Of a stretch of DNA of 64,000 nucleotides, positions 4,961-64,000 are shown piece after piece. The position numbers and the translations under genes are program-made. The stretch comes from Variovorax gracilis (GTDB lineage Bacteria; Pseudomonadota; Gammaproteobacteria; Burkholderiales; Burkholderiaceae_C). The stretch spans positions 124,001 to 188,000 of the forward strand of contig NZ_JASZYF010000010.1 of the NCBI RefSeq assembly GCF_030317115.1, given 5' to 3'. The first letter of the stretch is position 1; every line of letters starts with the position of its first letter. Under the pieces are notes generated by a model. That model was not told where the DNA came from and ran no database searches. It worked only from the letters and a program-made list of their open reading frames with translations.

Positions 4961-6200
<1,240 letters not shown>

Positions 6201-6227
6201 TACGCAAGGCACGAAAGACAAATCGAA

Positions 6228-14626: not shown

Positions 14627-15715
14627 GTGCCGCGTCCGATCCTCGCCACTGTCCATCTTGCTGCACTGCGGCACAACCTCGATCGCGCACGCCGCGCGGC
14701 GCTCGACTCGCGCGTGTGGGCCGTGGTCAAGGCCAATGCCTACGGCCATGGCATCGAGCGGGTCTTCGACGCCTTCCGGGCCGCCGACGGCTTCGCGCTG
14801 CTCGACCTGAAGGAGGCCGAACGTGTGCGCGCGCTCGGCTGGCGCGGCCCGGTCCTGCTGCTCGAAGGCGTCTTCGATGCGCGCGACCTGGAGCTGTGCT
14901 CGCGGCTCGATCTCTGGCACGCGGTGCATTGCGACGAGCAGATCGACATGCTGGCCGCCCACAAGACGCAGGCGCCGCAGCGCGTCTTCCTCAAGATGAA
15001 TTCGGGCATGAACCGGCTCGGTTTCACGCCCGAACGCTTCCGCTCGGCGTGGACGCGGCTGAACGCGCTGCCGCAAGTCGACGAGATCACGCTGATGACG
15101 CACTTCAGCGACGCCGACGGCGCGCGCGGCATCGCGCACCAGATCGAAGTCTTCGAGCGCATCACCCAAGACCTGCCGGGCGAGCGCTCGGTCGCCAACA
15201 GCGCCGCCACCTTGCGCCACGCGTCGACCACCCGCGCCGACTGGGTCCGCCCCGGCATCCTGCTGTACGGCAGCGCGCCGGACTTTCCCGAACACGACGC
15301 ACAGCACTGGCAGCTCCAGCCCGGCATGACGCTGTCGACGCAACTGATCGGCGTGCAGAACCTGAAGGCGGGCGACACCATCGGCTACGGATCGAGCTTC
15401 GCGGCAGACGGCCCGATGCGCATCGGCGTCGCCGCGGTCGGCTATGCCGACGGCTACCCGCGCCACTGCACGACCGGCACGCCCGTGCTGGTGAACGGCG
15501 TGCGCACTCGCATGGTAGGGCGCGTGAGCATGGACATGATCACGGTCGACCTGACGCCGGTGCCCGATGCCGGTTTCGGCAGCGAGGTGACGCTGTGGGG
15601 TCGCGCATCCAACGGCGCGCTGCTGTCCATCGACGACGTGGCGCAGGCCGCCGGCACGGTGGGCTACGAACTCATGTGCGCTGTCGCCATGCGGGTGCCC
15701 GCGACGGTCGATTGA
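14627..15715 (+). CDS. alr: Alanine racemase
   Basis: 362 aa. A GTG start at 14627 gives the usual N-terminus ([18 protein letters not shown]). The PLP lysine is Lys35 in [10 protein letters not shown]; the opposing catalytic tyrosine is in TIGYGSSF. It makes D-alanine for peptidoglycan. The longer frame starting at 14477 is not family-like. It ends 10 bp from the convergent catabolic cluster. In related Burkholderiales I recall radA following alr directly; here radA is 12 kb further on. Confidence 0.93.
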
Positions 15716-15725
15716 GAGGCGAGGG

Positions 15726-16703
15726 TCAGTAGAGGCCCGACTGCCTTGCCCGCAAGCGCGCCAGCCCGAGCAGCGCATCCGTGAACGGCGTCGGCACGCC
15801 GGCCCGTTGCCCCAGCTCTCGCACCGCCGAAACCAGCGCGTCGAGTTCGACCGCGCGCCCTGCTTCAACGTCCTGCAGCATCGAGGTCTTGAAAGCGCCC
15901 AGCTTGCGCGTGACGGCATGCCGGTCTTCGGGGCTCTCGGCGATGGGCACCCCGATGCGAGCACCGATCTCCTTCGCCTCCAGCATGATCGTGGAGATGA
16001 AGCCGCGCACCAGGTCGTCGTTGAGGATGAGGTCGGTCGTGGCGCCGGTCAGTGCGCTGATGGGGTTGACCGTCATGTTGCCCCAGAGCTTGTACCAGAC
16101 GTCTTTCTGAATCTGCGGCGAGAGCTTGGTGTCGATGCCCGCGCGCGCCAGCAGGTCGCGCAGCGCTTCAGCGCGCGGTGTCGCCTCCCCTGAGGGCTCG
16201 CCGATGATGAGTCCGTTGCCGAAGTGATGCCGCACCACGCCCGGCGCGTCGAGCGAGCAGCTCGCATGCACCACGCAGCCGATCACGTGCCTGGCGGGAA
16301 TGGCCGCGTCGATCTTGCCGCCCGGGTCGATGGCCTCGAGTTGCGCACCGGCCAGGCTGCCGCCGAAGCCGCCTTGCAGGAACCACCACGGCACGCCGTT
16401 CATGGCCGTGAGCACGATTGTTTCGGGGCCGAGCAGTGGCGCGATCTGCTGCGCGACGGCTGGCAGCGCTGGCGCCTTTACCGCTACGACCACCAGTTGC
16501 TGTACGCCCAATGCCTTTGGATCGCTGCTCGCGTTGACCGGCACCGACACGCGTGAATCGCCGCTCACCAGCGTCAGGCCGTCGCGCTTCAGTGCTTCGA
16601 GCGTCGCGCCACGCGCGACCACGTCGATCTCGCAACCCGCCTGCGCGAGCTTCGCGCCGATCCAGCCGCCGATGGCGCCGGCGCCGTAGATGCAAACCTT
16701 CAT
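15726..16703 (-). CDS. 2-dehydropantoate 2-reductase family protein (PanE/ApbA-like)
   Basis: 325 aa. Rossmann motif GAGAIGGWIGAKL lies at the N-terminus, and the catalytic Lys region KLWGNMTVNPISALTG marks the C-terminal ApbA domain. True PanE makes pantoate, but this copy is the last gene of a catabolic operon next to a class II aldolase and an IlvD-type dehydratase. It more likely reduces a 2-oxo acid intermediate or product there. The substrate is not known. Confidence 0.82.
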   Translation of the reverse strand: MKVCIYGAGAIGGWIGAKLAQAGCEIDVVARGATLEALKRDGLTLVSGDSRVSVPVNASSDPKALGVQQLVVVAVKAPALPAVAQQIAPLLGPETIVLTAMNGVPWWFLQGGFGGSLAGAQLEAIDPGGKIDAAIPARHVIGCVVHASCSLDAPGVVRHHFGNGLIIGEPSGEATPRAEALRDLLARAGIDTKLSPQIQKDVWYKLWGNMTVNPISALTGATTDLILNDDLVRGFISTIMLEAKEIGARIGVPIAESPEDRHAVTRKLGAFKTSMLQDVEAGRAVELDALVSAVRELGQRAGVPTPFTDALLGLARLRARQSGLY

Positions 16704-50180: not shown

Positions 50181-50218
50181 TCGATCACGAACCTGCAGGG
50201 TCGGACGGCGACCCCCGT

Positions 50219-50234
50219 TGGCACATCCTTTGCA
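50219..50234 (+). promoter_or_regulatory. Sigma-54 promoter of the atzF operon
   Basis: TGGCACA-TCCT-TTGCA fits TGGCACG-N4-TTGCW with a single deviation; GG (50220-50221) and GC (50232-50233) are 12 bp apart. The predicted start is near 50245. Ureide degradation genes of this type are commonly nitrogen-controlled. No clear NtrC site is visible upstream. Confidence 0.75.
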
Positions 50235-50239
50235 TGTCA

Positions 50240-50253
50240 TCTTGTACACAAGA
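50240..50253. promoter_or_regulatory. FCD/GntR-type operator over the atzF start site
   Basis: TCTTGTACACAAGA: 6-bp arms TCTTGT / ACAAGA around a 2-bp centre, followed by CAGGA. The centre lies 13.5 bp after the C of the -12 element, i.e. at about +2. The same element at the same distance recurs at 56957-56970. Core TTGT-ACAA resembles sites of FadR-type GntR regulators; a member is encoded at 63416. Confidence 0.7.
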
Positions 50254-50264
50254 CAGGATGCTTG

Positions 50265-51989
50265 ATGATGGTGCATGAAAGGGGCTTGTCCGAGCGCGGG
50301 CCCAAGACCTCGTTGAAGGAGTTGGCTGCGGCGGCGTGGATCGTCCGGCTGGAGTCGCCGCTGCGTGGCGCCGGCGCGGGGCCGCTCGCGGGTCTTCGCT
50401 TTGCCGTCAAGGACAACATCGACGTCGCCGGCGTGCCCACCACCGCCGCCTGCCCTGCCTTTGCGCGCACGCCGACCGAGCATGCGTACGTGGTGCAGCG
50501 GCTGCTCGATGCCGGTGCGGATCTGCTGGGCAAGACCAATCTCGACCAGTTCGCCTGCGGCCTCAACGGCACGCGCTCGCCTTATGGGGCGGTGCCGAAC
50601 AGCTTCGATGCGCGCTATGTGTCGGGCGGATCGAGTTCGGGGTCGGCCTATGCGGTGGCGACCGGACAGGTCGATTTCGCACTGGGTACGGACACGGCGG
50701 GCTCTGGCCGTGTGCCCGCGGGGCTCAACAACATCGTCGGCATCAAGCCGTCGCGCGGATTGCTCAGCGCCCGAGGCGTGGTGCCGGCCGCGCAGAGCGT
50801 GGATTGCGTGTCGATCTTCGCGCGCACTGTGGGCATGGCGGCTCGCGTGTTGCAGGCCGCAATGGGCTTCGACGCGGAAGACCCGTACTCGCGCAGCTTC
50901 TCGCTCGCGACACAGCCCTTCCCCGCAAGCTTCCGCTTCGGCGTGCCGACGGCGCTGCGCTTCTTCGGCGACAGCCAGTCGGCCGCTGCCTTTGACCGCG
51001 CCATCGAGCAGATGAAGGCGCTCGGCGGCACACCGGTCGCGATCGACTACGCGCCGCTGGCCGAGGCCGCCGCACTGCTCTACGACAGTGCGCTCGTCGC
51101 CGAGCGCTACGCTGCCGTGCGCGAGTTCTTCGACGCGCATGAAGCCGACGTGGTCGAGCCCGTGCGCAGCATCCTCGCGAAGGGCCGCGACTACAGCGCC
51201 TCCGACTTCGTCGACGCACGCATCCAGTTGCAAGCACTCGGCCAGCGTGCCACTGCCATGTGGGGCGACATCGACCTCCTGCTCGTGCCGACCGCACCGA
51301 CGCATTGCACGATCGAGGCGATGCAGGCCGACCCGGTCGCACTCAATCGGAATCTCGGCGAGTACACGAACTTCGTGAACCTGCTCGACTACGCGGCGAT
51401 CTCCGTGCCGGCCAGTCTGCGAGAGGACGGGCTGCCCTTCGGCATCACGATGATCGGCCGCTGCGGCAGCGACTTGCAACTTGCCGAACTCGGGCAGCGC
51501 TTCCATCACGCGACCGGGCTGCCGCTCGGTGCGACGGGCGAGCCGATGCCGGCGGCCGAATCGCTGGCAGTCATTGCGGCCGCGCAGACAGTCAAGGTGG
51601 CGGTGGTCGGCGCGCATCTGTCGGGCATGCCGCTCAATTCGCAGTTGACCGATCGTGGAGCGCGGCTCCTGGCCGCCACGCACACCGCACCGCTGTACCG
51701 GCTCTATGCCTTGCCCGGCACCGTACCGCCCAAGCCCGGCCTGCTGCGCGTACAGCCCGGCGAGGGCGCAGCGATTGCGCTGGAGATCTGGGAGATGCCG
51801 ATCACTCAGTACGGCAGTTTCGTCGCTCTCATTCCAGCGCCGCTGGGCATCGGCAGCCTCACGCTGGCCGACGGCAGCAGCGTGCAGGGCTTCCTGTGCG
51901 AAGCGCTCGCGGTTGCGGGCGCCGACGACATCACGCGTCTCGGCGGGTGGCGGGCGTACATCGCTTCGCGTGCTGCGCAGGCCGCCTGA
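50265..51989 (+). CDS. atzF: Allophanate hydrolase AtzF
   Basis: 574 aa (or 573 from a second ATG at 50268). Amidase-signature triad Lys49 (FAVKDNIDVAG), Ser123 (SGGSSSGSA) and Ser147 (GTDTAGSGRV). The C-terminal domain (from about 440) is the AtzF-specific region with EIWEMPITQYGSF. It hydrolyses allophanate (urea-1-carboxylate) to ammonia and CO2, the last step of biuret, carboxybiuret and cyanuric acid use. First gene of the operon. No urea carboxylase is adjacent, which supports the biuret route over urea amidolyase. Confidence 0.93.
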   Translation: MMVHERGLSERGPKTSLKELAAAAWIVRLESPLRGAGAGPLAGLRFAVKDNIDVAGVPTTAACPAFARTPTEHAYVVQRLLDAGADLLGKTNLDQFACGLNGTRSPYGAVPNSFDARYVSGGSSSGSAYAVATGQVDFALGTDTAGSGRVPAGLNNIVGIKPSRGLLSARGVVPAAQSVDCVSIFARTVGMAARVLQAAMGFDAEDPYSRSFSLATQPFPASFRFGVPTALRFFGDSQSAAAFDRAIEQMKALGGTPVAIDYAPLAEAAALLYDSALVAERYAAVREFFDAHEADVVEPVRSILAKGRDYSASDFVDARIQLQALGQRATAMWGDIDLLLVPTAPTHCTIEAMQADPVALNRNLGEYTNFVNLLDYAAISVPASLREDGLPFGITMIGRCGSDLQLAELGQRFHHATGLPLGATGEPMPAAESLAVIAAAQTVKVAVVGAHLSGMPLNSQLTDRGARLLAATHTAPLYRLYALPGTVPPKPGLLRVQPGEGAAIALEIWEMPITQYGSFVALIPAPLGIGSLTLADGSSVQGFLCEALAVAGADDITRLGGWRAYIASRAAQAA

Positions 51990-52032
51990 GCCAATCAAGA
52001 CCTGTCATTTCAAGAACCCTCCGGAGTAATCA

Positions 52033-53046
52033 ATGGCCTTCAAAGACTCATCGCCTTCCATCGCAGTGCCGGCCTCGCGGCGTCAGGTGCTCCAGGCGGG
52101 TGCGGCCGGCCTGGCCGTGATCGCGGCACCGGCGCTCGTGCGTGCACAGGCGGCGACGAAGATCCGTATCGGCTACTGGCCCATCGCCGCGGGGCTGCCG
52201 TTCTATGCCGCCGTGGAGCAGGGCTACTTCAAGAGCGCCGGCCTGGATGTCGAAGTGCAGCGCTTCGCCGGCGCGCAGCAGATCATGGAAGCCATGCTGT
52301 CCGAACGCTGCGACGGAAGCGCCAACGGCACGGGTTCGGCCAATATCGCGATCGGCGAAATCGCCGCGCCGGGCAGCTTCAAGATCTTCTGTTCCAACCC
52401 GAGCAACGCAAAGAACGTGCTCGACGAGATGCTGGTGCCGACGGCCAGCACCGCAAAGACCATGGCCGATCTCAAGGGCAAGCGCGTTGCGTCCGGCCCC
52501 GGCATCCAGAACGTGACCTTGGCCAAGACCGTGCTGGAGCGCGGCGGTGCGACCGGCGCCACGGTCGTCGAACTGCCGATCGGCCAGCACGTCGCCGCGC
52601 TGGCTGCCGGGCAGGTCGACGGCTGCTACACCCTGGAGCCCACCGGCACGATCGGCCGCCTCAACGGCAGCACGCGAGTGCTGGAGGCGGGCGTGATCGC
52701 CAAATACGTGCTGGGCGATCCGATGGCGCCGTGGTTCGGCGGCTCGGCTTCCCTGACCTCGGCGTTCATCAAGAAGAACCCCGACGCCGCGAAGAAGTTC
52801 ATCACTGCCTACGGCCAGGGCGTGGCCTACGTGCGCAGCAAGCCGAACGACGCTCGCCAGTACCTGAAGGGCTACACCGCCATCGAAGGCCCGCTCACCG
52901 GCGAAGTGCCGCTGGCGGCCTACACCATGTACAACGAGTTCACGCCGGCCGACGTGGCGCACTTCCAGAAGTTCTTCGACCTGTTCTCGGAAAAAGGCAT
53001 CTTCTCGTCGCGCCTGATGGTCGACTCGATGCTCTACAAGGGGTAA
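52033..53046 (+). CDS. ABC transporter substrate-binding protein (NMT1/SsuA-like)
   Basis: 337 aa. A signal with a twin-arginine pair (SRRQVLQAGAAGLAVIA) precedes the NMT1/ThiY-type fold (IRIGYWPIAAGLPFYAAVEQGYFKSAGLDVEV). This class binds nitrate, sulfonates, pyrimidines or ureides. Coupled with the permease and ATPase downstream. The substrate is inferred as a ureide such as biuret or carboxybiuret. Confidence 0.88.
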   Translation: MAFKDSSPSIAVPASRRQVLQAGAAGLAVIAAPALVRAQAATKIRIGYWPIAAGLPFYAAVEQGYFKSAGLDVEVQRFAGAQQIMEAMLSERCDGSANGTGSANIAIGEIAAPGSFKIFCSNPSNAKNVLDEMLVPTASTAKTMADLKGKRVASGPGIQNVTLAKTVLERGGATGATVVELPIGQHVAALAAGQVDGCYTLEPTGTIGRLNGSTRVLEAGVIAKYVLGDPMAPWFGGSASLTSAFIKKNPDAAKKFITAYGQGVAYVRSKPNDARQYLKGYTAIEGPLTGEVPLAAYTMYNEFTPADVAHFQKFFDLFSEKGIFSSRLMVDSMLYKG

Positions 53047-53050
53047 GGAC

Positions 53051-53881
53051 ATGAGCACTCCCGCGTCATCGGGCGCCGCACCCTGGGCACCGCCGGCCGC
53101 CACAGCGGCCTCTGCGCCGCCACGCGAATCGCACTGGGTCAAGGCGCTGCCCTTCATCGGCCCGGTCGTGCTGTTCATCGTCTGGGACCTGGCTGTCCGG
53201 CTGGGCTTCATCAAGGCGATCCTCCTTCCGATGCCGGCGGACACCATTGGCACCTTGCTGTCTGGCCTGGCGGGCGGTCCGCTGCTGACCGACTTCGCGG
53301 TGACCGTCTGGCGCACGCTGCAGGCCTTCCTCATCGCAGCCATCGTCGGCGTGCCGCTCGGCGTGCTGCTCGGCAGCAACGAGAAGGCCTATCGCAGTGT
53401 CGAGTTCCTGATCGACTTCTTCCGCTCCACGCCATCCTCCGCGCTCATCCCTCTGTTCCTGATGATCTTCGGCGTGTCGGACGTCAACAAGGTCGCGATC
53501 GCGGCTTTCGGCGCGCTGCTCATCGTGGTGTTCAACAGCGCCTACGGCGTGATGAACGCGCGCAAGCAGCGCGTGATGGCGGCCAAGGTGATGGGCGCAT
53601 CGCGCTGGCAGATCTTCCGCGACGTGCTGGTGTGGGAAAGCCTGCAGCCGAGCTTCGTCGGCCTGCGTTCGGCGGTGTCGATGGCGCTCGTGATCGTGAT
53701 CGTGGCCGAGATGTTCATCGGCTCCGACAGCGGCCTCGGCCACCGCATCATCAACTCGCAGCAGGTGATGAACGTGAAGGACATGTACGCGTCCATCCTC
53801 GCGGCCGGCGCGCTCGGCTATGCGCTCAACATCCTCTTCCTGCTGGCCGAGCGCCGCATCGTGCACTGGAGCGGACGATGA
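53051..53881 (+). CDS. ABC transporter permease (SsuC/TauC-like)
   Basis: 276 aa, six helices and the EAA loop near AAKVMGASRWQIFRDVLVWESLQPSFVGLR, typical of binding-protein-dependent inner-membrane components. It starts 4 bp after the binding protein gene and overlaps the ATPase gene by 4 bp (ATGA). Confidence 0.9.
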   Translation: MSTPASSGAAPWAPPAATAASAPPRESHWVKALPFIGPVVLFIVWDLAVRLGFIKAILLPMPADTIGTLLSGLAGGPLLTDFAVTVWRTLQAFLIAAIVGVPLGVLLGSNEKAYRSVEFLIDFFRSTPSSALIPLFLMIFGVSDVNKVAIAAFGALLIVVFNSAYGVMNARKQRVMAAKVMGASRWQIFRDVLVWESLQPSFVGLRSAVSMALVIVIVAEMFIGSDSGLGHRIINSQQVMNVKDMYASILAAGALGYALNILFLLAERRIVHWSGR

Positions 53882-54708
53882 GAGCCGTCGACAACGTCAT
53901 CAACGGGCCCGTCTATGCCGACGTGCCCAAGCCCGTCTTCACGCCCGGCCCGGCCGGCACGCACATCACCATCCGGGGACTTACCAAGTACTTCGCGGGC
54001 TGGCCGCTTTACGAGAACTTCGACCTCGACATCCCCAAGCACAAGATCGTTTCGGTCTTCGGGCCGAACGGCTGCGGGAAGTCGACGCTGATCAACATGA
54101 TCGCGGGGCTGATCCCGATCGACTCGGGCGAGATCCTGTTCGACGGCAAGTCGCTCAAGGACACCAAGATCGGGTACGTGTTCCAGAACTACCGCGAGGC
54201 GATGTTCCCGTGGATGCGCACCATCGACAACATCGCCTATCCGCTGAAGCTCGAAGGTCGTTCCAAGGCCGAGGTGGACCGGCGCATGCAGGAGCTCGTG
54301 GCTTCCTTCGACGTCAAGTTCGACCTCAAGCGTTATCCCTACGAATTGTCGGGCGGGCAGCAGCAGACCGCTTCGATCATGCGCGCGCTGGCGCCGAATC
54401 CGGAGGTGCTGTTCCTCGACGAGCCTTTCTCGGCGCTCGACTTCGAGATGACGCTCTTCATCCGCGAGAAGCTGCAGGAAGTGTTCATGCAGACCGGCAC
54501 GACGATGCTGCTGGTCTCGCACGACCTGGAGGAGGCCGTGTACCTGGCCGACCAGGTGTTGCTGCTGACCAAGCGGCCGACCAAGGTGGCGGAGATCCTG
54601 GACTACGGCGATGCGCGACCGCGCACGCTGGAGACGCTGAGTTCGGCAAGCTTCGTCAGCATGAAGAAGCTGAGCCTGGAAATCTTCCAGCGCGAAGTGC
54701 GCCGATGA
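53878..54708 (+). CDS. ABC transporter ATP-binding protein (SsuB/TauB-like)
   Basis: 276 aa. Walker A GPNGCGKST, signature LSGGQQQTA, Walker B VLFLDEP, switch His in VSHDLEEAV. The start MRAVDNVINGPVY overlaps the permease stop. It energises the importer of the upstream binding protein. The gene is followed directly by a hairpin repeat (54712-54810) before atzG. Confidence 0.92.
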   Translation: MRAVDNVINGPVYADVPKPVFTPGPAGTHITIRGLTKYFAGWPLYENFDLDIPKHKIVSVFGPNGCGKSTLINMIAGLIPIDSGEILFDGKSLKDTKIGYVFQNYREAMFPWMRTIDNIAYPLKLEGRSKAEVDRRMQELVASFDVKFDLKRYPYELSGGQQQTASIMRALAPNPEVLFLDEPFSALDFEMTLFIREKLQEVFMQTGTTMLLVSHDLEEAVYLADQVLLLTKRPTKVAEILDYGDARPRTLETLSSASFVSMKKLSLEIFQREVRR

Positions 54709-54711
54709 ATA

Positions 54712-54810
54712 TGGCACACCCCCAGGCTTGCCCACTTCATGTGGCCGCCCACCCGGTTGCAGGGGGGCAACACCAGCGGACCTGCGGAGCCGGTTCCGCG
54801 GTGTTTCCCG
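54712..54810 (+). repeat. 3'-end hairpin repeat, copy R3
   Basis: It starts four bases after the TGA of the ABC ATPase gene with GCACACCCCCAGGCTTGCCC. A GGTTGCAGGGGGGCAAC block and a CGGAGCCGGTTCCGCGG hairpin follow. It is nearly identical in design to R1 on the other strand. In this copy it sits inside an operon, between the ATPase gene and atzG. Confidence 0.75.
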
Positions 54811-54871
54811 GACGGGCATGGCTTCGCCGCCAGTCGCCCGCCAATTGACGCTTAGCGGATCGGAGGATGGC

Positions 54872-55078
54872 ATGACGCCCGCACAGATCGAATCCCATGT
54901 GGATGCCACCTCGGCTGCCCTGGGCCTGCGCTTGCGGCCCGACCACCGTCCCGGCGTCGTGCGCTTCTTCGGGTTGGCCGCGGAGTTCGCCGCGCTCGTG
55001 GAGGCCGTGCCGCTCGGCCCGCACGACGAGTCGGCGGTGAACTTCACGCCGGTCACGCCAAGGGAGCATGAAGCATGA
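54872..55078 (+). CDS. atzG: AtzG-like small subunit (DUF4089)
   Basis: 68 aa; the start MTPAQIESHVDATSAALGLRL (54872) fits GGAGG just upstream. Its size and its place just before AtzE with a 4-bp overlap match AtzG/HpxX, the small partner of the AtzE amidase. It probably evolved from a GatC-like protein and stabilises the complex. Confidence 0.85.
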   Translation: MTPAQIESHVDATSAALGLRLRPDHRPGVVRFFGLAAEFAALVEAVPLGPHDESAVNFTPVTPREHEA

Positions 55079-56514
55079 GCGCCGCGCCGGACGCCATCGC
55101 GGCCCTGCTCCTGAAGGATGGCTGCGCCATGGCGACCGCCGTGCAGTCCAAGGCAGTCAGCGCCGTAGCGCTTGTTCAGGCCAGCCTGGATCGCATCGAG
55201 GCGACGAACGGTCGGGTGAACGCCTTCACCGACGTGGTCCGTGAGCGCGCGCTGCGGCGGGCTGCACAAATCGATGCCTCGCTGTTCTCGGACAGGGGCG
55301 CTCGCACGCGCGAACTGCCGCTGCTCGGCGTGCCCTTCGCGGTGAAGAACCTGTTCGACATCGCGGGCCTGCCGACGCTGGCCGGCTCGAAGATCGAGCG
55401 CGAGAGCTCCCCGGCGCGCAGCGATGCCGAGCTGGTCCGCAGGCTCGAAAACGCCGGCGCCGTGCTGGTCGGCGCGCTCAACATGGACGAGTACGCCTAC
55501 GGCTTCACCACCGAAAACAGCCACGTCGGCGCGGCGCACAACCCGCACGATCTGTCGCGCATTGCCGGTGGGTCGTCTGGCGGCTCCGGCGCCGCGGTGG
55601 CCGCGGGGCAGGTGCCGCTGACGCTGGGTTCGGACACCAACGGATCGATCCGCGTGCCGGCCTCGCTGTGCGGCGTGTTCGGCCTCAAGCCCACTTTCGG
55701 CCGCCTGCCGCGCACGGGCAGCTATCCCTTCGTGTCGAGCCTCGATCACCTGGGTCCCTTCGCGCGCTCGGTGCGCGATCTCGCGCTGGCCTATGACCTG
55801 ATGCAGGGACCGGAAACCGCCGGCCTGCACGATCCCGGCTGCGCGCAACGCGCGGTCGAGCCGGTGACGCCCGCCATCGGACGCGGCCTGCAAGGGCTGC
55901 GCATCGGTGTGCTCGGCGGCTACTTTCGCGAACGCGCCCAACCCGAGGCGCTGACCGCCGTCGACGCCGTCGCGCAGGCCCTGGGCGCGAGCCAGACGGT
56001 CGAGCTGCCGATGGTCGAGGCCGGGCGTGCAGCGGCCTTCCTCATCACCAATTCCGAAGGCGCCGCACTGCACCTGCCGGACCTGCGCACTCGCGCCCAA
56101 GACTTCGAGCCTTTGTCGCGCGACCGGTTTCTCGCCGGTGCGCTGCTTCCGGCTGCGTGGATTGCGCGTGCGCAGCGTGTGCGGCGGCTCTACGCGGAGC
56201 AGGTCGGGCGGCTGTTCGAGCGATTCGACGTGCTGCTCGCCGCCGCCACGCCCTGCGCGGCGACGCCCATCGGCGCCGAATGGTTCGAGATCAACGGCCA
56301 GCGCCTGCCCGTGCGCCCCAGCATGGGCGTGCTGACCCAACCCATCTCGTGCATCGGCCTGCCGGTCTGCGCCGTGCCGGTGTGGGGCGCCCACCCGGAC
56401 CTGCCGATCGGCGTGCAGGTCATTGCCGCGCCCTGGAGAGAAGACCTCGTGCTGCGCGTCGCCGCCGCACTCGAAGCGGCCGGCGTGGTGCAAGCGCCGG
56501 TGGCCGCGCTCTGA
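55075..56514 (+). CDS. atzE: AtzE-family amidase (1-carboxybiuret hydrolase)
   Basis: 479 aa. Amidase-signature triad Lys91 (FAVKNLFDIAG), Ser167 (GGSSGGSG) and Ser191 (GSDTNGSIRVPA). AtzE with AtzG deaminates 1-carboxybiuret; the hpx homologue HpxY acts in purine/allantoin metabolism, so the exact ureide is uncertain. Gene order atzG-atzE-hpxZ is conserved in such loci. Confidence 0.88.
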   Translation: MSAAPDAIAALLLKDGCAMATAVQSKAVSAVALVQASLDRIEATNGRVNAFTDVVRERALRRAAQIDASLFSDRGARTRELPLLGVPFAVKNLFDIAGLPTLAGSKIERESSPARSDAELVRRLENAGAVLVGALNMDEYAYGFTTENSHVGAAHNPHDLSRIAGGSSGGSGAAVAAGQVPLTLGSDTNGSIRVPASLCGVFGLKPTFGRLPRTGSYPFVSSLDHLGPFARSVRDLALAYDLMQGPETAGLHDPGCAQRAVEPVTPAIGRGLQGLRIGVLGGYFRERAQPEALTAVDAVAQALGASQTVELPMVEAGRAAAFLITNSEGAALHLPDLRTRAQDFEPLSRDRFLAGALLPAAWIARAQRVRRLYAEQVGRLFERFDVLLAAATPCAATPIGAEWFEINGQRLPVRPSMGVLTQPISCIGLPVCAVPVWGAHPDLPIGVQVIAAPWREDLVLRVAAALEAAGVVQAPVAAL

Positions 56515-56526
56515 CAAAAGGAAGCG

Positions 56527-56907
56527 ATGAACACCCCCATCAATCTGCCCGAAGTGTTGGCCGAAGTGACGGCCGCCTTCGAGCGCTATGAAGATGCACT
56601 CGTCCACAACAAGGTCGAGATCCTCGACGAGCTGTTCTGGAACAGCCCGCACACCTTGCGCTATGGCGCCACCGAGAACCTCTACGGCTACCAGGAGATC
56701 CAGGCCTTTCGTGCATCGCGCCCATCGCAGGGCCTGGCGCGCGAGATCCTGCGCACCGTCATCACGACCTTCGGCCACGATTTCGCCACCGCCAACGTCG
56801 AATTCCGTCGCGAGGGAAGCACAAAGACGGGGCGCCAGAGCCAGACATGGATGCGCACCGCCCAAGGCTGGCGCGTCGTGGCCGCGCATGTGAGCCTGAT
56901 CGGCTGA
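56527..56907 (+). CDS. hpxZ: HpxZ-like NTF2-fold protein
   Basis: 126 aa. The pattern [46 protein letters not shown] is typical of HpxZ/AtzH-type (DUF3225) proteins. These accompany AtzE; AtzH from an s-triazine strain is reported as a 1,3-dicarboxyurea decarboxylase, which would make allophanate for AtzF. That role is proposed here by context. Confidence 0.85.
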
Positions 56908-56935
56908 TTTCTTCGCCAAAACCGTCGATTTGCGC

Positions 56936-56951
56936 TGGTACGGTTTATGCA
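56936..56951 (+). promoter_or_regulatory. Sigma-54-like promoter of the BMP-ABC/biuH operon
   Basis: TGGTACG-GTTT-ATGCA deviates at two positions from consensus but keeps GG (56937-56938) and GC (56949-56950) 12 bp apart. The copy upstream of atzF is better; the shared layout with the operator supports this one. Predicted start near 56962. Confidence 0.65.
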
Positions 56952-56956
56952 CACCG

Positions 56957-56970
56957 TCTTGTATCCAAGA
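56957..56970. promoter_or_regulatory. FCD/GntR-type operator over the second operon start
   Basis: TCTTGTATCCAAGA followed by CAGGA. Arms TCTTG / CAAGA with a 4-bp centre. Distance from the -12 C to the repeat centre is 13.5 bp, the same as in the atzF copy (50240-50253). Confidence 0.7.
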
Positions 56971-57018: not shown

Positions 57019-58134
57019 ATGAGCCAGTTCAATCGTCGCGATTCCCTCAAGTCCCTTGCAGCACTGGCCTCCGCCACCACGCTGGGTGGATGGAGTGCCC
57101 TCGCCAGCGCGCAGAAGCCGCTGACGGTCGGCGTGATCTACGTCGGCCCGCGCGACGACTACGGCTACAACCAGGCACATGCGCAGGCCGCGGCCGAATT
57201 GAAGAAGCTGCCCGGCATCAAGGTGGTCGAGGAAGAGAACGTGCCCGAGACCGCGGCCGTGCAGAAGACCATGACCGGCATGATCGCGCAGGACGGCGCG
57301 GGACTGCTCTTTCCCACGTCCTTCGGCTATTTCGATCCGCACATCCTGGCCGTGGCGCCGAAGAATCCGGATGTGCGCTTCTCGCATTGCGGGGGTCTCT
57401 GGACCGAAGGCAAGCATCCCAAGAACGTGGGCAGTTTCTTCGGCTACATCGACGAGTGCCAGTTCCTCAACGGCGTGATCGCCGGCCACATGACGAAGAG
57501 CAACAAGATTGCGTTCGTCGCGGCCAAGCCGATCCCGCAGGTGCTGCGCAATATCAACGCCTTCACGATGGGCGCACGCTCGGTGAAGCCCGGCATCACT
57601 TGCAGCGTGATCTTCACGGGGGACTGGTCGATGGCGGTCAAGGAGGCAGAGGCAACCAACAGCCTCGCCGACCAGGGCTGCGATGTGTTCACGATGCACG
57701 TCGACGGCCCGAAGGTGATCGTCGAGACGGCCGCCAAGCGCGGCAAGATGGTGTGCGGCTACCACGCGAGCCAGGCCAAGCTGGCTCCCAACGCGTACCT
57801 CACCGGCGCTGAATGGAACTGGCTCACGGCGTACAAGACCGTCGTCGAGGCGGCGCAGACCGGCAAGCCGCATCCGAATTTCCTCCGCGGTGGCCTGAAG
57901 GAAGGCTACGTGAAGATGTCGCCCTACGGCCCGATGGTGACCGACGCGGCCAAGAAGAACGCTGACGACATCAAGGCCAAGATGCTCGCCGGCACCTTCG
58001 ACATCTTCAGCGGCCCGCTGAAGGACAACAAGGGCGCGGTCGTGATCGCGGGTGGCAAGACGCTCAAGCAGACGGACCTGGAGTTGGAGAAGATGAACTA
58101 CCTGGTCGAGGGTGTGGTCGGCTCCATCGGATGA
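57019..58134 (+). CDS. BMP-family ABC substrate-binding protein
   Basis: 371 aa. A twin-arginine-like signal (NRRDSLKSLAALASATT) precedes a BMP/PnrA fold (VGVIYVGPRDDYGYNQAHAQAA, then VRFSHCGGLW and GSFFGYIDECQFLNGVIAGHM). BMP proteins usually bind nucleosides or purine breakdown products. AGGAG before ATG 57019 fixes the start, later than an in-frame ATG at 56947 within the promoter. It feeds the permeases and ATPase encoded downstream. Confidence 0.88.
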   Translation: MSQFNRRDSLKSLAALASATTLGGWSALASAQKPLTVGVIYVGPRDDYGYNQAHAQAAAELKKLPGIKVVEEENVPETAAVQKTMTGMIAQDGAGLLFPTSFGYFDPHILAVAPKNPDVRFSHCGGLWTEGKHPKNVGSFFGYIDECQFLNGVIAGHMTKSNKIAFVAAKPIPQVLRNINAFTMGARSVKPGITCSVIFTGDWSMAVKEAEATNSLADQGCDVFTMHVDGPKVIVETAAKRGKMVCGYHASQAKLAPNAYLTGAEWNWLTAYKTVVEAAQTGKPHPNFLRGGLKEGYVKMSPYGPMVTDAAKKNADDIKAKMLAGTFDIFSGPLKDNKGAVVIAGGKTLKQTDLELEKMNYLVEGVVGSIG

Positions 58135-58201: not shown

Positions 58202-59287
58202 ATGCGAAACACCCTGCGAGAAATCGCACTGCCAGTGTTCGCCATCGCGGCGGCGCTGCTCCTGTTCGGCGTGTTCGTCTGGTTCGCCGGCGTGAGCCCG
58301 CTGGAGGTGTGGGTCATCCTCTTCAAGGGTGCGTTCGGCGACTGGTTCTCCTGGCAGAACACGCTGCAGCGGGCGGCGCCGTTGATGCTCACGGCGCTGT
58401 GCGTCGCGATCCCTGCGCGCGCGGGCCTGGTGATCATCGGCGGTGAGGGCGCGGTCGTGCTGGGCGGCCTGGCCTGCGCTGCATTGCCGTACCTCTTGCC
58501 GCTGCCTGCCCATATGGCAGGCACGGTGGCGCTGTGCATCGCGGGCGCGGTCGCCGGTGCCGCGTGGATCGCGCTCGCGGGATGGCTTCGCCAATACCGC
58601 GGCATCAACGAGACCATCAGCAGCCTGTTGCTCGCGTATGTCGCGATCGGCCTCTTCAAGCACCTGGTCGAAGGGGTGCTGCGTGATCCGGCCAGCCTCA
58701 ACAAACCCGCGACGCGCTCGCTCGCGGACGGGCTGGCGATCGGCGGCATCGGCGGTTCCGATGTGCATTGGGGGCTGGTGATCGGCGTGGTCGCGTGCCT
58801 GGTGTCGGGGCTGTGGCTGAGGGCGACCGCTTCGGGCTTCTCGGTGCGCGTGGTCGGCGGCAATCCGCGCACCGCGCAACTGGTCGGCCTGCCGGCCAAC
58901 CGGCTCATCCTCGCGGCCTGCGGTCTGGGCGGCGCCTGTGCCGGTGTCGCCGGTGCGGTGGAGGTGGCGGCAGTCCATACCAACGCCAATGCGTCGCTGA
59001 TCGCGGGCTATGGCTACGCGGGCATTCTGGTGTCGTTCATCGCGCGTCACAACCCGGTGGCGGTGATTCCCGTCGCGATCCTGTTCGGCGGCTTCGGCGC
59101 CGCAGGCAGCCTGCTGCAAAGGCGGCTCGGCCTGCCCGACGCGTCGGTGCTGGTGCTGCAGGGGATGGCTTTCGTGCTGATTCTGGCGAGCGAAGGCTTG
59201 CGCATGATCGATTGGAAGGCGCTGTTCAAGAACCGCGCGCCCCTTGTCGCACAGTCCGCGCCGTTGGCGAAGGAGGTCGCGCAATGA
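58202..59287 (+). CDS. ABC transporter permease 1 of the BMP-type importer
   Basis: 361 aa, about ten helices, of the sugar/nucleoside branched-chain-like permease family (ARAGLVIIGGEGAVVLGGLA, then FSVRVVGGNPRTAQLVGL). Pairs with the 59284 gene to form the channel. Its stop overlaps that gene by 4 bp. Confidence 0.88.
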   Translation: MRNTLREIALPVFAIAAALLLFGVFVWFAGVSPLEVWVILFKGAFGDWFSWQNTLQRAAPLMLTALCVAIPARAGLVIIGGEGAVVLGGLACAALPYLLPLPAHMAGTVALCIAGAVAGAAWIALAGWLRQYRGINETISSLLLAYVAIGLFKHLVEGVLRDPASLNKPATRSLADGLAIGGIGGSDVHWGLVIGVVACLVSGLWLRATASGFSVRVVGGNPRTAQLVGLPANRLILAACGLGGACAGVAGAVEVAAVHTNANASLIAGYGYAGILVSFIARHNPVAVIPVAILFGGFGAAGSLLQRRLGLPDASVLVLQGMAFVLILASEGLRMIDWKALFKNRAPLVAQSAPLAKEVAQ

Positions 59288-60204
59288 CCGCCGACCAATG
59301 GATCGCGCTGATTGCCGGCATCGTCGGCGGTGCCTTGCGCGTCGGGGCGCCCTTTCTCTTCGTGAGCCTGGGCGAGTGCCTGACCGAGAAATCGGGCCGC
59401 ATCAACCTCGGCCTCGAAGGCGTGCTCGTGCTCTCGGCGATGGCATCTTTCGGCGGCGCATGGCTCACCGGATCGGCATGGCTGGGCGTGCTGATCGGCG
59501 GCATGGTTGGCGCGGCGCTGGCCTTGCTGCACGGCCTGCTGTGTTCGCTCGACCGGGTTAACGACGTCGCGACCGGCATCGCGCTGATGCTGTTCGGAAC
59601 TGGTCTTGCGTTCTACCTGGGCAAGCCGTTGATCCAGCCACAGGCGCCGCAACTGCCGGCGATCCCGCTGGGCAACTGGAGCGACAACCCGGTCATCCGC
59701 TCGGCCCTGCAGGTGAATTCGCTGGTGCCCGTCGGCATCGCGCTCGCGGTGCTGCTGTGGTGGGGCTTTGCGCGCACGCGCGCCGGCCTGCTCGTGCGCA
59801 TGGCCGGCGATTCGGCGAACGCGACGCGCGCGTTGGGCTACTCCGTCGCCGGTTTGCGCGTCGCGGCCACCACGGCGGGCGGCTTCATCGCAGGGTTGGG
59901 AGGCGCATCGCTCACCCTGTTCTATCCGGGCAGTTGGAACGAAGGCATCTCCAGCGGGCAGGGCCTGATTGCGGTGGCGCTGGTGATCTTTGCGCGCTGG
60001 AGCCCGCTGCGATGCATCGGCGCGGCGCTGCTCTTCGGCGGCGCGGGCGCCATCGGTCCCGCGCTGCAATCGATCGGCGTGGGCTGGGGGTATCACCTCT
60101 TCAACACCGTGCCCTATGTGCTCACGCTCGTTATCCTCGTGCTGACGTGCAAGCCGGGCAGCGTGGCCGCAGGAAGTCCCGGCGAGCTTTCGTCCACACG
60201 TTGA
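59284..60204 (+). CDS. ABC transporter permease 2 of the BMP-type importer
   Basis: 306 aa, hydrophobic, same family as the previous gene ([40 protein letters not shown]). It is in a 4-bp overlap with permease 1 and 11 bp before biuH, which links transport to hydrolysis. Confidence 0.88.
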
Positions 60205-60215
60205 ACTGCCGACCC

Positions 60216-60932
60216 ATGAGTGCTTCCACAACGCCACCCGAGTGCTTCGTCGCCGCCAACCCGTACCCGTGGCCCTACAACGGCGCGCTGCGGCCCGACA
60301 ACACCGCGCTCATCGTGATCGACATGCAGACGGACTTCTGCGGCAAGGGCGGGTATGTCGATGTGATGGGCTACGACCTCTCGCTGGTGCAGGCGCCGAT
60401 CGAGCCGATTGCGCGCACGCTGGCGCGGTTGCGGCCGCTGGGCTTTCACATCATCCACACGCGCGAGGGGCATCGCCCCGATCTCGCCGACCTGCCGGCC
60501 AACAAGCGCTGGCGTTCGCGGCAGATCGGTGCCGAGGGCGTTGGCATCGGCGACGCAGGGCCGTGCGGGCGCATCCTGGTTCGCGGCGAGCCGGGGTGGG
60601 AAATCATCCCTGCGCTCGCGCCGCTCGACGGTGAAGTCGTCATCGACAAGCCGGGCAAGGGATCGTTCTACGCAACGGACCTCGAACTGGTGCTGCGCAC
60701 CCGCGGCATCGAGAACCTGATCCTGGCCGGCATCACGACCGACGTGTGCGTGCACACGACGATGCGTGACGCCAACGACCGCGGGTTCGAGTGTCTGCTG
60801 CTGTCGGATTGCACGGCGGCGACCGACCATGGCAACCATCTCGCGGCGCTCAAGATGATCACCATGCAGGGCGGCGTGTTCGGTGCGCATGCGCCCTCGG
60901 GTGCCTTGCTCGACGCGCTGTCGGCGTTTTAG
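60216..60932 (+). CDS. biuH: Biuret amidohydrolase BiuH-like cysteine hydrolase
   Basis: 238 aa isochorismatase-fold hydrolase. Triad Asp36 (VIDMQTDF), Lys145 ([10 protein letters not shown]) and Cys178 (TTDVCVHT). Long stretches such as YNGALRPDN and [14 protein letters not shown] match what I recall of the Rhizobium BiuH sequence, with catalytic positions shifted by only three. BiuH turns biuret into allophanate and ammonia, feeding AtzF. Placed between the permease and ATPase genes. Confidence 0.87.
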
Positions 60933-60950: not shown

Positions 60951-62561
60951 ATGATCGCCCCGGTCGACCCGCTCCCTCCCACCACCGGCGCGCTGGCGCT
61001 GGACACCTACGAGCTGACCAAGCGCTTCGGCACTTTCACGGCGATGGACCGGGTGACGATGCATGTCGAACCCGGCACGGTGCACGCGCTGCTCGGCGAG
61101 AACGGCGCGGGCAAGAGCACGCTGGTGAAGTGCGTGGCAGGCTTCCAGCGCGCCGAGGAGGGGAGCATCCTGATCGACGGCCGCGAGCAGGACATCGCGA
61201 ACCCGATCGTCGCGCGCGCGCTGGGCATCGGCATGGTCTACCAGCACTTCACGCTGGCGCCGGGAATGACGGTCGCGGAGAACCTGTTGCTGGCCGGCGG
61301 CAAGACGCCGGCGGTGATCGACTGGAAGACGACGCGCGCCGAGCTCACGCGGTTTCTGGCGACGACGCCCTTCAGCCTGGACCTCGACATGCGGCCGTCC
61401 GAACTGGCTGCGGGCGAGAAGCAGAAGCTGGAGTTGCTGAAGCAGCTCTACCTGAAGCCGCGCCTGTTGATCCTGGACGAGCCGACCTCGGTCCTGACGC
61501 CGCAGGAGGCCGACGAGGTGCTGGGGCACGTGCGCGAGTTCGCGCGCAGCGGGTTGTGCACGGTGCTGATCATCACGCACAAGTTCCGGGAGGTGATGTC
61601 GTATGCCGACAGCGTGACGGTCCTGCGCCGTGGCAAGGCGGTGCACCACTGCAAGGTCTCCGAGACGAATCCCGCCAGGCTCGCCGCGGCCATGATGGGT
61701 GAGGGCGAGGCGCCGCCGCCCGAAGGCGATACGGCGGCACCGGTCGGCCGCGCGTTGCACGCGATGAACGACACGGCCGCGGATGCGCCCATTGCATTGC
61801 GAGTCGAAGGACTGCAGGCGCAGGGCGATCGGGGAACGCTGGCGGTGCATGACCTGAGTCTCAGCGTGCGCTCGGGCGAGATCCTGGGCGTGGCGGGTGT
61901 CTCGGGCAATGGTCAACGCGAGCTGGTGGAGGCGCTGGTGGGCCAGCGGCCGAGGCTGGCCGGGCAGGTGACGGTGATGGGCGAGCCCTATGCCGCGCGG
62001 CGCGAGGAGAACCGGCGCCTGAAGGTTCGCAGCCTTCCCGAGGAGCCGTTGCGCAATGCCTGTGTCGGTGACCTGAGCGTCGCGGAGAACATGGCGTTGC
62101 GGGATTTCGATCAACCACCGTTGGCTTGGAAGGCATTCGGTGCCGGGGTACTCAACTTCCCCCTGTGGCGCAGCAGGGCGCGCGAGTGGATTGCCGAGTA
62201 CGGGGTCAAGACACAGGGGGAAGGCGCGCCGATTCGCTCGCTCTCCGGTGGCAACGTGCAGCGCGCGGTGCTTGCGCGCGAACTGGCCGGTGACATCAAT
62301 GTGCTGATCGCGGCGAATCCCGTGTTCGGGCTGGATTTCGCGGCTGTCGCGGAAATCCACAGCCGCATCGTGCAGGTGCGGGCGCGGGGCGGGGCTGTCC
62401 TGCTGATCAGCGAGGACCTCGATGAACTGCTGGAGATGGCGGATCGCATCGTTGTCATGAGCGAAGGGCGCGTGGTGTTCGAGACCGCTGCCGCGACCGC
62501 CGAGAGACACGTGCTGGGGGCGCACATGGGGGGCGGGGATCACTCTGCGGTGGCTGCATGA
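60951..62561 (+). CDS. ABC transporter ATPase with two nucleotide-binding domains
   Basis: 536 aa. Domain 1: Walker [10 protein letters not shown], a non-standard signature LAAGEKQK, Walker B LLILDEP. Domain 2: a degenerate Walker A (GVSGNGQRE) and signature LSGGNVQRA. This arrangement is normal for sugar/nucleoside ABC ATPases of the BMP class. It powers the importer formed with the two permeases. Confidence 0.9.
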
Positions 62562-62739: not shown

Positions 62740-63405
62740 ATGCAACTAGAAGCCAACCCCTTCCCCTACGAATTCGATCCGGCAAAGACCGCCTTGGTCC
62801 TCATCGACATGCAGAGGGACTTCATCGAACCGGGTGGGTTCGGCGAAACCCTGGGCAACGATGTCTCGCTGCTCGAAGCCATCGTCCCCGCCACGAAAAG
62901 GACGTTGGAAGCCTGGCGGGAAGCAGGCGGCCTGGTGGTCCACACGCGCGAGGCGCACAAGTCCGATCTTTCGGACTGTCCACCCGCCAAGCGCAATCGC
63001 GGCAATCCGACCTTGCGCATCGGCGACGCAGGGCCGATGGGGCGCATCCTCGTGATGGGTGAACCGGGCAACCAGATCATCGACGCGCTCGCACCGATCG
63101 AAGGCGAGATCGTTGTCGACAAGCCCGGCAAAGGCGCCTTCTACGCCACCGGCCTGCACGAGATGCTGAAGCGGCGCGGCATCACGCATCTGCTGTTCGG
63201 CGGCGTGACCACCGAAGTCTGCGTGCAGACCAGCATGCGCGAAGCCAACGACCGCGGCTACGACTGCCTGCTGCTGGAAGACTGCACCGAGAGCTACTTT
63301 CCCGCCTTCAAGGCAGCCGCCGTCGAGATGATCCGCGCCCAGGGTGCCATCGTCGGCTGGACCGCGCCGAGTGCCGCACTTCTGGCTGCGCTCGGCAAGC
63401 ACTAA
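62740..63405 (+). CDS. Second isochorismatase-fold cysteine hydrolase (possible triuret hydrolase)
   Basis: 221 aa. Triad Asp23 (LIDMQRDF), Lys128 ([10 protein letters not shown]) and Cys161 (TTEVCVQT). It shares the DAGP.GRIL, GEPG and ANDRGY blocks with the BiuH-like protein but lacks its [12 protein letters not shown] start and PANKRWR region. Related enzymes include triuret hydrolase (TrtA), ureidoacrylate hydrolase and others. In this locus triuret or carboxybiuret is the best guess; no direct evidence. The RBS is weak. Confidence 0.8.
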
Positions 63406-63415
63406 CATCCCCCTC

Positions 63416-64000
63416 GTGTCCTCTGTCCGATTTCCTCCCGTCCCCGCCGACCCCGCGGCTCCGGATCCCGCGTTCCGCACGCGAGCCGATCAGGTGTACG
63501 CCCAACTCAAGCGCGACGTGGCCGAGTTCAGCCTGGTGCCAGGCGACCGGTTCACCGAGAACGAAATCAGCGAACGGCTCGGCGTCTCGCGCACGCCGGT
63601 GCGGCAGGCGCTGTTCAGGCTGCAGCAGGAAGGCTTTGTCGAAGTGCTGTTTCGCAGCGGCTGGCGCGTGCTGCCCTTCGACTTCGACCAGTTCGAACAA
63701 CTCTACGACCTGCGCATGGTGCTGGAGACCACGGCTGTGCACCGGCTCTGCGAAAGCGACCACCGCGTCGATCGCAGCCTGGTCGAAGCGCTGGCCGGCA
63801 TCTGGCTGGTGCCGGCAGCGTTGCGCAGCGCCGACACCGTGCAGGTGGCGCAGTGGGACGAGGAGTTTCATTGCTCGCTCGTCGCCGCCGCCGGCAACGC
63901 CGAGATGGCGCGCGTGCATCGCGATGTGACGGACCGCATCCGCATCATCCGCCGGCTCGACTTCACCAAGCAGCCGCGCATCGACGCCACCTACGACGAG
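63416..64000 (+). CDS. GntR family regulator, FCD type, 3' end outside window
   Basis: Open from a GTG at 63416 to the window edge (195 codons). The N-terminal winged helix is standard (YAQLKRDVAEFSLVPGDRFTENEISERLGVSRTPVRQAL). The C-terminal FCD domain begins at LYDLRMVLETTAVHRL, with the EFHCSLV metal-site His region. It starts 10 bp after the cysteine hydrolase gene. It is the likely ligand-sensing repressor or activator for the operators at 50240 and 56957. Confidence 0.88.
   Translation, partial: MSSVRFPPVPADPAAPDPAFRTRADQVYAQLKRDVAEFSLVPGDRFTENEISERLGVSRTPVRQALFRLQQEGFVEVLFRSGWRVLPFDFDQFEQLYDLRMVLETTAVHRLCESDHRVDRSLVEALAGIWLVPAALRSADTVQVAQWDEEFHCSLVAAAGNAEMARVHRDVTDRIRIIRRLDFTKQPRIDATYDE

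Follow-up and report, generated by a model that had tools for sequence, protein, structure and literature searches.

Two sigma-54-type promoters with start-site operators probably place a triuret/biuret gene cluster of Variovorax gracilis under joint nitrogen and GntR control

The DNA analysed here (the window) is a stretch of 64,000 nucleotides from Variovorax gracilis and forms part of contig 2 of a 7.78-Mb genome. It carries a cluster of genes whose predicted products serve the scavenging of nitrogen from triuret, biuret and allophanate, with a first promoter, P1, ahead of the allophanate hydrolase gene atzF and a second, P2, further downstream. Both combine a -24/-12 block of the sigma-54 type with a palindromic operator. 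We propose that P1 and P2 are sigma-54 promoters controlled by nitrogen limitation and that the GntR/FCD regulator encoded at the end of the cluster probably represses them at the start site until substrate is present.

The -24/-12 block reads TTGGCAC-ATCCT-TTGCA at P1 and CTGGTAC-GGTTT-ATGCA at P2, with GG-N10-GC in both (Table 1). Compared with the sigma-54 consensus TGGCAC-N5-TTGCA, P1 is exact and P2 has two mismatches. Each block is followed by a repeat of the form TCTTG-N4-CAAGA, which we call O1 (TCTTGTACACAAGA) and O2 (TCTTGTATCCAAGA), and in both cases the distance from the C of the -12 element to the repeat centre is 13.5 bp. An earlier, sequence-only reading of this DNA had described the two composites with this geometry, and they are present in the sequence just as it had placed them. 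Sigma-54 transcription usually starts 12 nt after the C of the -12 element, so that +1 would fall at the positions given in Table 1; the operators would then span about -5 to +9, with their centre at about +2.5. Sites of the FadR subfamily of GntR regulators contain TKGT/ACMA boxes, according to the available part of the source (PMC4494728). O1 (TTGT-AC-ACAA) fits this pattern, and in O2 (TTGT-AT-CCAA) one box is altered. The variants TTGTATACAA and TGGTATACCA are found in relatives. In most Variovorax the operator centres (50246-50249 and 56963-56966 in the window) differ, with TACA at P1 and TATC at P2. Such a difference could perhaps mean different affinities. The CAGGA that follows the repeat at both promoters had also been counted as part of the element. 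This part of the description was dropped: the motif is not conserved, and the P1 promoters of relatives often have TTTGGA, ATTGGA or TATGGA. At P1, CAGGA opens a further conserved element (see below) and is perhaps a Shine-Dalgarno site.

The composite is not a product of chance. When the pattern TGG-N9-TGC-N7-CTTGN4CAAG was run on 101 genomes of the genus, it was found at 83 places in 65 genomes, against a single place for the reversed pattern; two of the 83 (G029 contig 82 and G098 contig 519) are unlike sigma-54 sites and do not lie beside atzF. With a stricter -24/-12 element and the spacing left free over 27 values, 79 of 82 places in these genomes had the spacing seen in the window, and the reversed pattern gave none. 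This bears out the view that the composite is a real unit. Of the 82 genus genomes that bear atzF, 79 have the module at P1: 64 carry the exact composite (these places were matched to the atzF positions by comparing two lists by eye), 14 depart from it by one or two changes within the arms of the palindrome, and the last is G053. The remaining three are G029, which carries a lesion, and G075 and G100, which are interrupted by contig ends. Across 55 non-redundant P1 promoters, the sequence varies between and upstream of the -24, -12 and operator positions, which are themselves conserved. Likewise, 16 non-redundant P2 sequences are conserved at the blocks and not between them. The exact P2 composite occurs in 17 of the 101 genomes, with variants in others.

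In the window's own genome, the palindrome TCTTGNNNNCAAGA (TCTTGN4CAAGA) occurs three times, two of the copies being O1 and O2. The third was considered as a further member of the regulon and rejected, there being no sigma-54 element beside it. It is located on contig 42 (G000; locus L005, 6268-6281), ahead of a short reading frame that we take to resemble an antitoxin gene.

The same arrangement extends beyond the genus. Named loci were fetched by AtzE, with the best 80 of 579 candidates kept; the named relatives closest to the window among these are Variovorax. The promoter comparison covered loci with an atzF of at least 60% identity and at least 120 bp before it, which, of the named loci, removed L071. 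Of the 31 named loci compared, 29 have a sigma-54 element with no more than two mismatches, and the operator stands at exactly 13.5 bp in 27, most of them from other Comamonadaceae; beyond Variovorax, they include Pseudorhodoferax, Xenophilus, Hydrogenophaga, Curvibacter, Polaromonas, Rhodoferax, Ramlibacter and Caenimonas. The four exceptions are L041, which has a lesion like that of G029, L096 (Pseudomonas helleri), which has neither sigma-54 element nor operator, L048 (Ramlibacter), with a spacing of 10.5 bp, and L108 (Bordetella), with 15.5 bp. A spacing of 12.5 bp was observed in L090 (Albitalea).

A more distant group, with an atzF of about 50-55% identity, comprises Rubrivivax, Rhizobacter, Piscinibacter, Aquincola and others. 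Its operator is TGGTATACCA-like (GTATACC), the group having been chosen partly by this operator itself. In 14 P1 loci of this group, a sigma-54-like element is present 14.5-17.5 bp before the operator centre, and seven P2 promoters share the operator type of P1. The exact spacing noted earlier thus holds for the Variovorax/Comamonadaceae group and breaks down in the Rubrivivax-type P1 promoters, as well as in L048, L108 and L090. Since the P1 spacing varies in the distant group, the strict 13.5-bp geometry is clade-specific. That spacings from 10.5 to 17.5 bp are tolerated in relatives suggests that GntR may block the polymerase rather than make a precise contact with it. The helix-turn-helix of GntR also differs between the window's group and the distant group. 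The matched operators at the two promoters, together with this group-wise change of operator and regulator, provide the chief indirect argument for binding of the palindrome by GntR. Because the module is found at both promoters in both groups, the P1/P2 pair looks ancestral, P2 having apparently been lost or changed in many genomes; the module should therefore not be called duplicated in the sense of a recent copy.

The linked regulator contains PF00392 and PF07729, both above cut-off, and thus belongs to the GntR/FCD type. Its gene is present in 65 of the 65 genomes with the composite, and the 18 genomes without it lack the exact composite. The window's genome has one rpoN, and the sigma-54 activator domain has 18 matches in it, of which 14 are strong; one activator is NtrC as judged from its first 120 residues, the part that was scanned. 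Taken with the conservation, these findings support the earlier view that RpoN-type promoters are combined with start-site operators and tied to GntR in a nitrogen-scavenging cluster. When nitrogen is limiting, P1 and P2 would be opened by an activator of sigma-54, most likely NtrC. Without substrate, a GntR dimer sitting on the start site would prevent promoter opening or promoter escape by the polymerase, and triuret, biuret, carboxybiuret or allophanate would release it. As gntR is at the end of the P2 operon, GntR would also limit its own synthesis. If this is correct, the two composites would be a described control region for bacterial triuret and biuret use, of which searches of open PMC papers turned up none; they would govern a small regulon of two operons and form a natural AND switch (nitrogen shortage plus substrate) that has been kept across part of the Burkholderiales.

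Several observations weigh against this proposal, and two alternatives draw on them. The strict sigma-54 consensus by itself is found at 12 places in the genome, compared with 8 for the reversed pattern, which is not significant; the sigma-54 assignment therefore rests on conservation across genomes. In G029, the stretch between the -24 element and the operator has been lost and the operator and genes have been kept, many relatives have a P2 without the module, and no conserved NtrC-like site was found in the 330 bp upstream of P1 (at least 11 of 14 positions in 5 of 63 promoters, versus 1.1 expected). The lack of enrichment and the missing normal -12 block of G029 could mean that a housekeeping promoter is at work and that the -24/-12-like blocks are kept for another DNA-binding protein. 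We regard this as very improbable, since TGGCAC and TTGCA stand at exactly GG-N10-GC with variable bases between them in the 55 non-redundant promoters, and are seen in the distant group too. Furthermore, the related cyanuric acid operons are reported in the available part of the source to be sigma-54 dependent (PMC6834077). The G029/L041 lesion places the operator's own TTGTA at the -12 position. This natural lesion upstream of atzF is seen in L041 and L122 (Variovorax paradoxus ISL-3 and G029).

The other difficulties concern GntR. Because gntR and atzF are found together almost without exception, their joint presence does not identify gntR as the partner of the palindrome. G053 has a P1 module with one change and no gntR match in an assembly that is 88% complete. 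The joint change of operator and regulator counts, in essence, as a single evolutionary step. L090 and L097, with a VREAL-type helix and CTTG-type operators, do not obey a simple residue rule. P1 and P2 might then be sigma-54 promoters at which GntR is an activator or a dual regulator, or at which a different protein binds the palindrome. This is unlikely in our judgement: the operators lie on the start site, as suits a repressor, the palindrome agrees with the consensus of the FadR subfamily, and both operators differ between the two groups in step with the helix-turn-helix of GntR. Repression by GntR at sigma-54 promoters remains the reading that we prefer.

P1 has a further conserved element. 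In the window's group, GGATGC (48 of the 55 non-redundant P1 promoters) and TGGTGCA (52 of 55) stand at fixed positions downstream of the operator and together make up a TGC-N11-GCA dyad centred at +23. Against the NtrC pattern TGCACCA-N3-TGGTGCA, the window matches at 11 of 14 positions, the right half being complete and the left half reduced to TGC. Of 63 promoters, 56 have a dyad with at least 11 of 14 matches in the stretch from +5 to +45, versus 0.31 expected from Markov-shuffled controls. The Pseudomonas NtrC dyad is given as GCACCA-N3-TGGTGC in the accessible part of PMC12977541. A looser scan upstream of P1 (10 of 14), with the NtrC pattern as the only one tried, gave 13 of 63 promoters versus 8.2 expected. 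NtrC-like sites at -230 and -155 of P1 were discarded, as they lie inside the upstream gene and are in place only in near relatives. Run on the whole genome, the NtrC consensus was too loose to be informative (522 places per strand versus 155 in the control), and a sigma-54 element was present within 350 bp in one of the 20 loci returned. As a control, we used the nrtA promoters of the genus, in which conserved TGGTGC and GCAC-type sites were found at about -105 to -156 (18 of 20 loci with a sigma-54 element). The paired NtrC-like sites of these nrtA-like loci (L167 and L185-L204) lie about 105-156 bp upstream of the sigma-54 element of a nitrate-type importer.

TGGTGCA overlaps the start of atzF. 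Residue 2 is Val in 55 of 55 sequences and is encoded by GTG in 54 of 55, and later residues vary. We considered the possibility that the motif is conserved as coding sequence only, and rejected it in view of this Val/GTG constancy and of L086, L087 and L095. In these three loci, the frame stops after five codons and the element is unchanged, so that a coding role does not account for it in them. Of the 14 P1 promoters of the distant group, 13 have GTGCAC or GCGCAC at a distance of 12 bp from the centre of the operator; GTGCAC stands at the same distance in 6 of 7 P2 promoters, the seventh having GCGCCC. This distance is kept although, at P1, that between operator and -12 element varies. The motif is thus tied to the operator, which favours a second GntR subsite in that group, and GTGCAC retains the GT-N2-AC core. 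In the window's group, however, GGATGC occupies this place without GT-N2-AC, P2 lacks the block, and the dyad fits the NtrC pattern in most promoters. A second GntR subsite in place of an NtrC-type site, which would be compatible with repression by GntR at P1 and P2, is possible, though we would not call it the probable outcome. The downstream element is open to three interpretations: an NtrC-type site, a second GntR subsite or a role in the mRNA. More doubtful still is the idea that the atzF promoter is a compact three-part switch, in which a sigma-54 core is combined with a GntR operator at the start site and, centred at +23 in the leader, a dyad serving as an NtrC-type enhancer. If so, repressor and activator would meet within about 40 bp and a distant upstream enhancer would be unnecessary. 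Some other activators bind downstream of their promoters, and Porrua and colleagues reportedly described in 2009, to go by the title as listed among the references of PMC5026340, a sigma-54 promoter without an upstream activator site, which is said to be that of atzR. The P1 leader, in which a conserved NtrC-like dyad at +23 is visible and a conserved upstream enhancer is not, would be a candidate for sigma-54 activation from outside the usual upstream place.

The combination of an RpoN promoter with a start-site GntR operator had been thought unusual, a view that is not supported as far as its kind goes. In Pseudomonas, HutC, a repressor of the GntR family, protects DNA that overlaps the sigma-54 site of hutU, in an operon for a nitrogen and carbon source that is activated by NtrBC; substrate relieves the repression, and the HutC operator is TGTA-N2-TACA (available part of PMC12977541). 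HutC belongs to another GntR subfamily and acts in the histidine pathway, whereas the regulator described here has an FCD domain and an operator centred on the putative start. The hutU promoter is also activated by CbrAB. The principle of joint GntR and sigma-54 control is thus already known, and the present case, with its pathway, FCD regulator and start-centred operator, appears to be a variant of it.

Closer in enzymology are the atzDGEHF and atzRSTUVW operons of Pseudomonas sp. ADP, with related enzymes and the BMP-type binding protein AtzT; as far as the accessible text of the source goes, both are sigma-54 dependent, induced by nitrogen starvation and under a pathway-specific regulator (PMC6834077). 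AtzR is of the LysR type and activates one operon, and AtzD is present there; here we find TrtA, BiuH and GntR, and the scan of window genes showed no AtzD (no search of the whole genome was aimed at it). A predicted NtrC regulon includes atzF (PMC5343134), though in the part of the paper available this is stated for Rhizobiales and without a GntR operator. Clusters of trtA, biuH and atzF in Herbaspirillum, Rhizobium and nitrifiers bring the same enzymes together (PMC7948467), with no promoter or operator described in the accessible portion, and a figure legend lists gntR among the annotated neighbours of biuH in nitrifiers (PMC12625717). Among open PMC titles and the beginnings of abstracts, none was found on GntR plus sigma-54 control of triuret or biuret genes. 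Literature look-ups on the NtrC sites of Burkholderiales and on AtzR gave nothing useful; the available part of PMC5491218 contained no NtrC site consensus, and the text of PMC5806882 no GntR.

The predicted enzyme genes trtA, biuH and atzF occur together in the window, and the whole cluster, as judged from its gene content, would comprise TrtA, BiuH, AtzEG, AtzH, AtzF, two importers and the terminal regulator. P1 precedes the genes for AtzF, the NMT1/SsuA-type importer, the AtzG-like subunit, AtzE and the AtzH/HpxZ-like protein, the last of which we presume to be AtzH from its position. P2 precedes those for the BMP-type importer, BiuH, the TrtA-like hydrolase and the GntR/FCD regulator. The likely GTG start of gntR is 10 nt after trtA, and the gene ends 162 bases past the window.

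Table 1. Promoter elements and genes of the triuret/biuret cluster in the window
Feature	Position	Strand	Basis and remarks
P1, sigma-54 type element TTGGCAC-N5-TTGCA	50218..50234	+	Sequence and conservation; inferred +1 near 50245
O1, operator TCTTGTACACAAGA	50240..50253	+	Sequence, conservation, fit to TKGT/ACMA
Downstream element, GGATGC (50256-50261) and TGGTGCA (50269-50275)	50256..50275	+	Conserved dyad, NtrC-like
atzF, allophanate hydrolase	50265..51989	+	Above curated cut-off of TIGR02713; start 50265 or 50268
NMT1/SsuA-type substrate-binding protein, ATP-binding cassette (ABC) importer	52033..53046	+	Family scan
Permease and ATPase genes, NMT1/SsuA-type importer	53051..54708	+	
AtzG-like subunit	54872..55078	+	PF13318
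atzE-family amidohydrolase	55075..56514	+	Above cut-off
AtzH/HpxZ-like protein	56527..56907	+	HpxZ above cut-off
P2, sigma-54 type element CTGGTAC-N5-ATGCA	56935..56951	+	Sequence and conservation; inferred +1 near 56962
O2, operator TCTTGTATCCAAGA	56957..56970	+	Sequence and conservation; spacing 13.5 bp, as O1
BMP-type binding protein	57019..58134	+	Closest solved structure AtzT (6pi5)
Two permease genes, BMP-type importer	58202..60204	+	Open reading frames; role by neighbourhood
biuH, biuret amidohydrolase	60216..60932	+	Above NF050097 cut-off; exact start putative
ATPase gene, BMP-type importer	60951..62561	+	Open reading frame; family by sequence reading
trtA-like cysteine hydrolase (triuret hydrolase)	62740..63405	+	Best match 6xix (TrtA); below BiuH cut-off
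gntR, GntR/FCD regulator	63416..64000 in window, runs to 64162	+	Last gene, after trtA

An extra amidase-like gene is located between the importer and biuH in relatives such as L041, L044, L045, L048, L039 and L083, and its copy in L044 (about 15100-16400 of that locus) is a formamidase by family scan. Cyanuric acid was considered as a substrate; the extra gene of the relatives, going by the scan of its L044 copy, is a formamidase and not AtzD. The formamidase-type gene is present in several relatives and missing from the window's lineage. Elsewhere in the window, positions 5862-7748 carry a gene resembling glnK and one for an ammonium transporter, the latter being the only PF00909 match of the genome.

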